14,529 bases of DNA from Microbacteriaceae bacterium (GTDB taxonomy: Bacteria; Actinomycetota; Actinomycetes; Actinomycetales; Microbacteriaceae): positions 1 to 14,529 of the forward strand of contig RFQD01000013.1 of NCBI GenBank assembly GCA_009925875.1. Direction: 5' to 3'. This document shows positions 2,751 to 4,316 of the stretch, one piece after another. Both the position numbers and the translations under genes were made by a program. The first letter of the stretch is position 1, and every line of letters starts with the position of its first letter. The notes under the pieces were generated by a model. That model was not told the origin of the DNA, ran no database searches, and saw only the letters and a list, made by a program, of their open reading frames with translations.

Positions 2751-3413
2751 CTAGAAGACATCTGGACTCGGCGCACTCGCAAACAGCACAGACACATCCG
2801 GATGAGGATCAAAGCGGTACCCCTCACCGCGGACGGTACGCACAATGTCTTCAAAACGCCCCAGCTTTGACCGAAGTCGGCGCACGTGCACGTCGATCGT
2901 GCGGTCATTGGGAATATCGACATCGTCGGCACGCCACAGCGAGCGGATAATTTCGGCGCGAGAAATCGTGAGACTCTTGTGCGTCACCAGATATTGCAGG
3001 AGTTCGAACTCTTTGAACGTGAGCGGCGAAATCTCGTCATCAATCGTGACGCGCTTGCGTGAGATATCGATAACGATTCCCGCCAGATCTTTTTCGTCGA
3101 CGTCATCGCTCCGATGCCGTGCGACGGCGCTCGGTTCTTGGAGCGCGAGGCGAACCACATCCACGCTACGACCGCCCGAACCGACCGGTGCCAGGGCAAC
3201 CGCGGCATAGGTTTCCGCCCCGGGGGCAAGTGACGTCGTGAGGTTCTTCAGAGCCGTCACGATCTGAGAAAGATCGATGCCGTGCTCGGCGGCCGCCGCT
3301 TCGTCGATGCCGACATACAGCGCGAATCCGCGCGCCTTTGTGTCACGCGGAACGGCCTTCACGCTCGGTCGCGGAGTTTCGTCTGGAACGGGAACGAGTT
3401 TTGTTGTTGCCAT
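2751..3413 (-). CDS. Orphan winged-helix transcriptional regulator (OmpR/PhoB-type DNA-binding domain, no receiver)
   Basis: The 220-residue protein has a clear OmpR/PhoB-type winged-helix domain at about 112-202: SPLTFKEFELLQYLV, recognition helix around RTIDVHVRRLRSKL (171-184), and wing VRTVRGEGYRF (191-201). The N-terminal half (about 28-95) is not a CheY-like receiver: no acidic pocket, phosphoacceptor Asp or conserved Lys is recognisable. Instead it reads ALYVGIDEAAAAEHGIDLSQ and continues as a compact alpha/beta segment of unknown role, which could sense a ligand or dimerise. The start ATG 3413 follows AAAAAGGA with about 10 bases spacing. A long leader with a polycysteine ORF lies upstream, and a strong terminator lies 135 bases downstream, so it is probably transcribed alone. 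The DNA-binding class is secure; targets and signal are unknown. Cysteine or sulfur control is an inference from the leader only. Confidence 0.85.
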   Translation of the reverse strand: MATTKLVPVPDETPRPSVKAVPRDTKARGFALYVGIDEAAAAEHGIDLSQIVTALKNLTTSLAPGAETYAAVALAPVGSGGRSVDVVRLALQEPSAVARHRSDDVDEKDLAGIVIDISRKRVTIDDEISPLTFKEFELLQYLVTHKSLTISRAEIIRSLWRADDVDIPNDRTIDVHVRRLRSKLGRFEDIVRTVRGEGYRFDPHPDVSVLFASAPSPDVF

Positions 3414-3459
3414 GATGATGAATCCTTTTTATCGTGTCGCATCGCGTGCCGGGGAGAGT

Positions 3460-3525
3460 GCTCGAACGCCCTCAATCGACCACGCGCGAATGCGAAAGTG
3501 AATGAATGTTTGCTGAGGGATGAGC
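3460..3525 (-). promoter_or_regulatory. Possible attenuator-like leader hairpin between polycysteine ORF and regulator
   Basis: On the minus-strand RNA, GCUC (3525-3522) plus CCCUCA (3519-3514) can pair with UGAGGG (3474-3469) plus GAGC (3463-3460), giving 6 and 4 bp separated by an internal loop and closing a 39-base loop. The CCCUCA arm can instead pair with the Shine-Dalgarno region UGAGGGGAU of the short ORF (3594-3586, one bulge), so the two structures exclude each other. The hairpin has no U-tract and does not cover the regulator's own Shine-Dalgarno, so the mechanism is uncertain. Confidence 0.35.
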
Positions 3526-3526
3526 G

Positions 3527-3577
3527 TTAGCAACAACACATTCGACAACACGCCATGCTCTCGTCGCGCATCATCAT
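3527..3577 (-). CDS. Polycysteine leader peptide (16 codons)
   Basis: This small frame in the regulator's leader reads MMMRDESMACCRMCCC then TAA, with 5 cysteines in the last 7 residues (codons TGT TGT ... TGT TGT TGC). It is preceded by GAGGGG 10 bases before the first of three consecutive ATG codons, a good Shine-Dalgarno spacing. The stop is 113 bases upstream of the regulator start. Short ORFs ending in cysteine runs are known in mycobacteria as cysteine-responsive attenuators, where ribosomes slow at Cys codons when Cys-tRNA is scarce. The peptide itself probably has no function. Conservation cannot be tested here; five cysteines in seven codons is very unusual for actinobacterial coding sequence. 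The frame remains open upstream into upp, so the translation start rests on the Shine-Dalgarno alone. Confidence 0.5.
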   Translation of the reverse strand: MMMRDESMACCRMCCC

Positions 3578-3677
3578 CGCGACGTATCCCCTCACCTCAA
3601 CGGCGGACGTAGGGACAACACGGTTCGTCATGACAAAAGGGTACCGCATGCCTCGACGAGTACCGCACAATACAAGG

Positions 3678-4316
3678 TCAATATGCCCCAAAGAGTCGAT
3701 CGCCGGCGTCCCCAAGCCCAGGCACGATGTACCCCTGGTCATTGAGTCCATCGTCGATGACCGCGACGAACAAGCGAGTCGTTCCGCCCAGACGCAGGAA
3801 CGCCCGCTCGACCGCGGCCACACCTTCGGGCGACGCGACAAGACAGGCGCAGGTCACATCGGTCGCGCCACGTGAGTGCAGATTCTCGAGCGCCGTGATC
3901 AACGAACCACCCGTTGCGAGCATGGGGTCCATGACGATGACCTGCCGATCAGCTAAATCCTCGGGCATCCGATTCATGTACACGACGGGGAGCAACGTCG
4001 TCTCGTCCCGTTTCGTTCCGAAAAACCCGACTTCGTTCACGGGAATCAGGGTGAGAAAGCTGTCGAGCATGGCGAGACCTGCGCGCAAGATGGGGACGAG
4101 AAGTGGTCCGGGTTGCGGCAATTCGAGACCGACGGTGTGCGAGACGGGAGTGGTGACGGGCCGAGGTTCCGTGTGCAGTGCGGCGCAGGCAGAGACCCCC
4201 ACAATCGTGGCGAGCGACGAAACGGCGTGGCGAAAAAGCCACGCAGGAGTGCTCGCATCGCGCAGAATCGCCAGTTGATGTGCAACGAGAGGATGCTCCA
4301 CCACGGTCACGCTCAT
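3678..4316 (-). CDS. upp: Uracil phosphoribosyltransferase
   Basis: Converts uracil and PRPP to UMP in pyrimidine salvage, in the cytoplasm. The 212-residue length is normal for the family. The PRPP-binding loop is VMDPMLATGGSL (128-139), the flexible-loop region FFGTKRDETT lies at 98-107, and the C-terminal uracil-binding segment is GYIVPGLGDAGDR (195-207). The start ATG 4316 lies exactly 6 bases after a TAGGGT hexamer, predicting a leaderless mRNA. GAAGGA just before the ATG is too close to act as a Shine-Dalgarno for it but is 6 bases before an in-frame GTG at 4310, so a start two codons in is possible if a longer transcript exists. The gene is divergent from tadA, with 42 bp between the starts. 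Confidence 0.95.
   Translation of the reverse strand: MSVTVVEHPLVAHQLAILRDASTPAWLFRHAVSSLATIVGVSACAALHTEPRPVTTPVSHTVGLELPQPGPLLVPILRAGLAMLDSFLTLIPVNEVGFFGTKRDETTLLPVVYMNRMPEDLADRQVIVMDPMLATGGSLITALENLHSRGATDVTCACLVASPEGVAAVERAFLRLGGTTRLFVAVIDDGLNDQGYIVPGLGDAGDRLFGAY

Follow-up and report, generated by a model that had tools for sequence, protein, structure and literature searches.

We found that an orphan winged-helix regulator gene of Microbacteriaceae is preceded by a short upstream open reading frame (uORF) of about 33 codons that ends in cysteine codons, and that this uORF is real and widespread in the family. The best reading of the sequences is that of a cysteine-responsive attenuator ahead of a transcription factor gene, in which the uORF probably acts as the cysteine sensor deciding the amount of regulator made. 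If this is true, cysteine-responsive uORFs occur beyond mycobacteria, in another large family of actinobacteria, and are linked to a transcription factor of unknown function, which would gain its first testable role.

The uORF in the window

The window, the whole stretch of 14,529 nucleotides that was analysed, comes from a draft genome of 1.75 Mb (93.9% complete), in which it is contig 25. The original prediction was a Cys-rich ORF of 16 codons led by a GAGGGG Shine-Dalgarno (SD) sequence in front of the regulator gene. The letters are as predicted: on the minus strand, the 16 codons encode MMMRDESMACCRMCCC, of which five of the final seven are Cys, with GAGGGG ending 10 bases 5' of the first of three ATGs. 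However, this ORF is only the 3' half of a longer one, as its reading frame is open further upstream and the relatives place the conserved start at the ATG at 3631, giving the 34-codon uORF MTNRVVPTSAVEVRGYVAMMMRDESMACCRMCCC (Table 1). A profile built with the window peptide among its members (profile A1) matches the window uORF at E=2.2e-12. The Met codons in the middle of the uORF form the loop of a hairpin, and the Microbacterium counterpart, GCCGGC-ATGATGATG-GCCGGC, is similar.

Table 1. Features of the uORF and regulator region in the window
Feature	Position	Strand	Basis
uORF, 34 codons plus TAA, MTNRVVPTSAVEVRGYVAMMMRDESMACCRMCCC	3527..3631	-	conserved ORF, 98/104 loci
16-codon ORF from internal ATGATGATG, 3' half of uORF	3527..3577	-	sequence; internal start disfavoured by relatives
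hairpin GTCGCG-ATGATGATG-CGCGAC inside uORF, Met codons as loop	3563..3583	-	sequence and fold
putative sensor codons TGT TGT CGA ATG TGT TGT TGC adjoining stop	3530..3550	-	CGA-ATG in 96/98 loci; core pN 0.011, pS 0.30
-10-like TACCCT, ends 6 bases 5' of uORF ATG	3638..3643	-	sequence; TACCCT/TATCCT in L003, L004
leader, uORF stop to regulator ATG, 36 C and 25 G of 113, candidate Rho-entry region	3414..3526	-	
regulator SD AAGGA, 9 bases 5' of regulator ATG	3423..3427	-	sequence
GCAACAACA at regulator codons 2-4, fully complementary to the final three Cys codons, TGTTGTTGC	3402..3410	-	
orphan winged-helix (Trans_reg_C) regulator, 220 aa	2751..3413	-	ATG at 3413
upp, upstream neighbour, outside the unit	3678..4316	-	no upp match in the examined upstream DNA of 59/89 uORF loci

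Distribution of the uORF

By a tail motif that was composed after the members had been seen, and is therefore no unbiased detector, the uORF is present in 98 of the 104 non-redundant regulator loci; many of the loci are close relatives (chiefly Microbacterium), so the locus counts are not independent. One more locus (L069) has it by eye, three (L052, L062 and L088) have too little upstream DNA for a judgement, and L022 and L028 are without a uORF among the 104. Loci entered the set when their regulator matched at 44% identity or more, with L027, L029, L030 and L031 below the cut and uncounted, and the match in L028 is partial and weak. By reading, the uORF is present in 23 of the 24 family genomes with an ortholog (best regulator match at E<=1e-50), three of them with weakened tails (L020, L021 and L025). 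Conservation in relatives makes a chance origin of the window ORF unlikely.

Profile A1, of which some of the matched sequences had themselves been part, was searched against 40 genomes; 18 of the 25 family genomes have a match at E<=2e-6, one in each and all just upstream of the regulator. Strong matches in these 40 genomes are confined to the DNA before the orphan regulator; among those weaker than E 2e-6, the ones in G006 and G007 fall at the uORF (L008 and L025). The window's own genome has no profile match besides the uORF of the regulator leader, and the two other places of a 12-base pattern in it fall in long open frames. A search with a 15-base pattern in 296 genomes of the class gave 59 places, spread over 49 of them. 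We read 30 of these loci and found a uORF tail in 13 of the 14 family loci, L156 being the exception. The 16 non-family loci have no uORF-like tail, because at least eight codons continue past the motif in every one of them.

Of the two order-level relatives that have orthologs, L024 has a uORF with the tail CCRMHA, and L027 has a 24-codon ORF, MHRSPCHRLARSAIAMMRCVRGLR, that begins 7 bases behind AATAAT and is without the tail. L022 has no uORF; there, a TAACCT box ends 6 bases 5' of the ATG of the regulator itself, as though this gene had turned leaderless.

Coding selection and codon use

The consensus of 28 diverse members is MTxxARxLxxxEAxGxAGxMMPxxxVMCCRMCx, in which M1, R30, M31 and C32 are invariant and M20 and M21 nearly so. 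The word polycysteine, used in the original prediction, is too strong for most members, with three cysteines in the tail in 54 of the 87 distinct uORFs, four to six in 16, two in 13 and one in 2 (the remaining 2 were unscored). A check suggested with that prediction was whether the short ORF, its stop position and its Cys codons are kept among relatives while the flanking DNA varies. Frame, stop position and Cys codons are indeed kept, and the DNA downstream of them is not: the pairwise identity among 36 Microbacterium leaders is 0.848 in the uORF versus 0.557 in the leader downstream of it. Across the 87 distinct uORFs, pN/pS is 0.42, and the six core codons have a pN of 0.011 with a pS of 0.30. 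The uORFs thus show the conservation of Cys codons and the coding selection that mark the polycysteine-uORF class. Their stop codons vary (TGA 44, TAG 33, TAA 21) at a conserved place.

The codons themselves are also restricted. A CGA-ATG pair is fixed in 96 of 98 loci, the window CGA being uORF codon 30 (3542-3544), and CGA makes up 5859 of 36093 Arg codons (~16%) in the long open frames of high-GC loci. Where Cys is encoded within the last eight codons of high-GC uORFs, the codon is TGT in 161 of 226 cases, versus 718 of 3626 in long open frames, this background consisting of unannotated frames. The invariant Met and CGA are not accounted for by Cys sensing alone. In one locus (L026) the tail is CSMCMCMCMCR, where alternating Cys and Met codons replace the CRMC core; it looks as if the Cys/Met content had been retained through the swap.

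Promoter and apparently leaderless layout

A -10-like box ends 6-9 bases 5' of the upstream start in 74 of the 96 uORFs scored, and at 6-7 bases in 73 of them; these boxes in the relatives are of the CATAAT/TTTACT type. TTGAC is found 28-44 bases upstream of the uORF in 81 of the 96, and both elements together in 65. The window and its two closest relatives count among the TTGAC misses of this scoring, and L001, L003 and L004, of the window's genus, have a TACCCT/TATCCT box and no TTGAC -35. A consensus scan of the window gave no minus-strand promoter. The position of TACCCT in the window, recognised by eye, would put the transcript start at or beside the uORF ATG.

Because the -10 box ends 6-7 bases 5' of the ATG in relatives, the window uORF looks leaderless and GAGGGG is probably unused. 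The start at the ATG at 3577 behind GAGGGG, as originally assigned, thus gives way to a probably leaderless start at 3631, which the relatives favour. An internal SD-led start of the 16-codon ORF was considered and is disfavoured, as the -10 boxes of the relatives precede the upstream ATG; by a loose test, an SD-like tetramer lies 5' of the internal ATG run in 36 of the 85 uORFs having such a run. In the spacer of the Microbacterium uORF promoters, we noticed by eye that GAC often recurs about 10 bases after the GAC of the -35 element. This repeated GAC could be a direct-repeat operator for autoregulation.

The regulator and its neighbours

The sole Pfam match of the regulator is Trans_reg_C at residues 130-201, and all its NCBIfam matches, among the best 25 of 37, are below their own cut-offs. 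Solved relatives of the regulator profile, among the best 60 of 65, align from position 95 on, which is the DNA-binding half. They include 8hig/8hih, which we take to be GlnR. The N-terminal half matches no Pfam family, and two models of this domain are of low confidence (mean pLDDT 67 and 72). Residues 1-110 (2754-3413) are strongly conserved, with stretches such as GFALYVGID and VDVVRLAL. An attachment of the uORF to upp or tadA was considered and rejected, as the upstream DNA examined contains neither gene in 52 of 89 loci, and the neighbour genes in nine regulator loci gave nothing informative.

We also investigated sulfur genes. A sulfite reductase domain is found in 4 of 25 family genomes, a MetN NIL domain in 18 and a MetE N-terminal domain in 8; none of these three domains was found in the window's draft (93.9% complete). 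Since the sulfite reductase domain occurs in only 4 of the 25, sensing of reduced sulfur could be a real need in this family. No CRMC-type uORF was found before the sulfur genes at the testable loci (21 of 23 metN (PF09383), 6 of 8 metE and 1 of 4 sulfite reductase loci). In L184, L195 and L196, Cys-rich frames lie 219-457 bases upstream of sulfur genes.

Leader composition and Rho

Usable leaders were obtained from 89 of the 98 uORF loci. From the uORF stop to the regulator SD, they average 0.428 C and 0.251 G, and the control upstream of the uORF 0.333 C and 0.326 G. Every one of the 89 leaders has more C than G, with a mean C-G of 0.178 versus 0.026 in 111 other 5' leaders, whose genes were selected by reading-frame composition and not by annotation. 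A C-G of at least 0.15 is found in 73 of the 89 uORF leaders versus 5 of the 111. The C excess of the window leader is moderate (Table 1).

Rho prefers C-rich, G-poor RNA. Of the 25 family genomes, 19 have a Rho protein that scores above the curated cut-off, and in five others there are long matches (211-491 bits). In the window's own fragmented draft Rho was not found, except for a Rho_N-like stretch below the cut-off. Because C exceeds G in every leader, Rho action fits better than the sealing of a ribosome site.

RNA structure

We then investigated RNA structure in the uORF and the leader. An intrinsic terminator, as in a classical trp-type attenuator, was looked for and the idea rejected, since there are no terminator-like sites at 3380-3800. 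Rfam gave no matches at 3300-3800 up to E=1. Compared with shuffled versions of itself, the window leader has no better fold (z 0.65). RNAalifold on the alignment of 36 leaders gave 21 pairs with one double change, among which the hand-tested helices are absent, and the consensus structure from a 40-leader alignment differs from it. Within the uORF, stability is not above that of synonymous recodings (mean z +0.18, 87 uORFs); by composition-keeping permutation the mean z is -0.66, with 64 of 87 negative. Helix P1, which pairs uORF codons 3-5 with codons 24-26, has 88.2% of cells paired and 5 of 8 pairs changed on both sides, and 5 of 500 shuffles score as high. A coarser test on 94 uORFs gave a weak result (best-helix score 16.9, versus 16.0 when partners were swapped and 14.5 when codons were shuffled). 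Because of these two-sided changes in 5 of 8 pairs, some of the uORF conservation may be structural.

Long-range pairing of the Cys codons was examined in several ways. In the 36 Microbacterium leaders, ATGTGTTG[TC] stands opposite GCA[AG]CACA upstream of the regulator ATG with 81.8% of cells paired, against 17-56% in slid registers; 5 of 500 shuffles reach its covariation score and 36 its paired percentage. The best complement (at least 6 bp) of the Cys arm lies 40-85 bases 5' of the regulator ATG in 39 of 89 leaders (shuffles mean 9.6, maximum 19), this zone having been picked after inspection of the data and the 89 rows being non-independent. Three control arms gave 19, 8 and 6 in the same zone versus 14.5, 11.8 and 7.7 in shuffles, and control arm 2 likewise shows an excess of complementarity, outside the zone. 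Strong complements to the Cys arm are found in Alpinimonas (L034/L035) and Curtobacterium leaders. In the window, TGTTGTTGC and GCAACAACA could form 9 bp, with p=0.03 when judged by length and 0.27 when judged by energy, and the longest complements in L003 and L004 sit elsewhere than at regulator codons 2-4. Over all leaders, the longest complement has p<=0.05 in 16 of 89 by length and the energy in 6 of 89 (an earlier test gave <0.05 in 15 of 96), and the energy of the core duplex barely beats shuffles (z averaging -0.41 to -0.47).

We simulated ribosome stalling on the uORF in the 89 leaders by masking. The mean unpaired value of the SD is 0.419 free versus 0.412 stalled, with 30 leaders going up and 27 down, and for the window together with its two closest relatives, fold prediction gave no consistent SD opening. 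Sealing of the SD that stalling would relieve is therefore not supported, the predicted SD exposure showing no overall change. Directly 5' of the SD, the Microbacterium leaders have a hairpin GAACCCG...CGGGTTC, with the matched variants GAATCTC/GAGATTC in L083 and GAATCCC/GGGATTC in L087.

Proposed mechanism and alternatives

With moderate confidence, we favour the explanation that the leaderless uORF and the orphan regulator form one unit in which Cys-tRNA is sensed and transcription is attenuated through Rho. The two would share one transcription unit, and 70S ribosomes would load at the 5' AUG to translate the uORF. With ample Cys-tRNA, the ribosomes would reach the stop and leave, baring the C-rich, G-poor leader; Rho would load there, and little mRNA would extend to the regulator. 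When Cys-tRNA is scarce, a ribosome would halt at the Cys codons, a few codons from the stop, with a footprint that would cover the stop, the start of the C-rich stretch and an arm of the long-range helix, and the regulator would continue to be transcribed and translated. Low cysteine would in this way raise the level of the transcription factor, a direction suggested by the leader layout and by analogy with mycobacteria. Cys-tRNA sensing with Rho-dependent attenuation is the most economical model, base pairing being a helper or an alternative output. More tentatively, a family-wide ribosomal sensor of cysteine, and perhaps of methionine, may set a master regulator through the CGA-ATG pair and Rho entry on the C-rich leader, so that one sensor would drive a regulon instead of many uORFs each controlling one operon, in hosts most of which have no sulfite reductase seen.

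In a translation attenuation of the mycobacterial style, the Cys stretch would pair near the regulator's ribosome site and a stalled ribosome would free that site. The Microbacterium helix speaks for such pairing, with its 81.8% paired cells and a covariation score reached by few shuffles, as do the clustering of best complements above the shuffled level, the strong complements in Alpinimonas and Curtobacterium, and the complementarity of TGTTGTTGC to regulator codons 2-4 in the window. However, the partner site varies among genera and even inside the window's genus, and significant complements are few by length, by energy and in the earlier test. The core duplex energy is hardly below shuffles, control arm 2 has its own excess and the zone was chosen post hoc. 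SD sealing of this style is unsupported, because the predicted stalled ribosome frees no SD overall, and we consider this output doubtful. The nascent peptide, rich in Met and Cys and ending ...CCRMC near the stop, might instead be an arrest peptide, a metal binder or a redox sensor, so that the signal would not be Cys-tRNA. The invariant M1, R30, M31 and C32, the nearly invariant M20 and M21 and the low core pN are consistent with a peptide function, and a redox role has also been suggested for mycobacterial Cys uORFs. Yet codons are kept and not residues alone, as the fixed CGA and the favoured TGT indicate, and tails such as CSMCMCMCMCR, CCRMHA and SKMCA are ill-suited to a single arrest motif; we regard a peptide signal as unlikely.

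Very improbable, in our view, is a Cys-rich ORF that arose by chance or an RNA element that is not translated. Helix P1 lies inside the ORF and has its two-sided changes, as an untranslated element might. On the other hand, different stop codons at a conserved place, a core with synonymous and hardly any replacement changes, and a uORF start 6-7 bases behind the -10 boxes all point to a coding function. Cys-tRNA sensing with Rho-dependent attenuation thus stays our preferred reading.

Comparison with known systems

Polycysteine leaderless short ORFs of mycobacteria were reportedly described by Canestrari in 2020. Their action is termed translation attenuation in the accessible part of PMC13236596, and the portion of PMC4633059 available to us describes polycysteine leaderless uORFs in the cysA2, nirA and Rv0485 leaders. 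As far as that portion goes, the Microbacteriaceae uORF resembles them in its probably leaderless layout, in having Cys codons that adjoin the stop, and in its likely place as the first gene of its unit. A downstream gene in cysteine or sulfur metabolism is a mark of the mycobacterial type, though not a strict one, as the Rv0485 leader shows; here an orphan winged-helix regulator follows. The uORF described here differs in its bacterial family, in the usual Cys-Cys-Arg-Met-Cys tail with conserved Met pairs and a fixed CGA, and in that its strong profile matches lie only ahead of one orphan regulator. The transcription factor gene that the original prediction placed downstream is there, but a uORF before a regulator has precedents. 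One is Rv0485, whose leader, in what is available of its description, likewise has a uORF ahead of a transcriptional regulator. Another is whiB7, where, according to the excerpts at hand of PMC4128351 and PMC13236596, a uORF attenuator also sets the level of a transcription factor; that system has an SD-led uORF and a Rho-independent terminator and is induced by stalling in the uORF.

Leader peptides of actinobacterial cys operons were predicted in 2005 (PMC1262725). In the text of that paper available to us, they share with the present uORF the short ORFs, the Cys codons near the stop, the lack of a conserved terminator and the proposal of Rho. They stand ahead of cys operons in Mycobacterium and Propionibacterium and of cbs in Bifidobacterium, in contrast to the orphan regulator here, and their candidate Rho sites lack conservation, whereas all 89 leaders here have more C than G. 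The open-licence literature searched, at the level of listings, contained no report of this Microbacteriaceae uORF. The novelty lies in the family, in the conserved CCRMC/CGA core with its Met pairs and in the strict coupling to a single orphan regulator. The leader of metL in Streptomyces lividans is, in the accessible passages of PMC8079986, leaderless with 29 codons ending ARCMCRRMCAF; it is called methionine-related there and precedes metNIQ methionine import, whereas a regulator follows here. Its tail, as given in those passages, resembles the CACRRMCCSN of the Aurantimicrobium uORFs.
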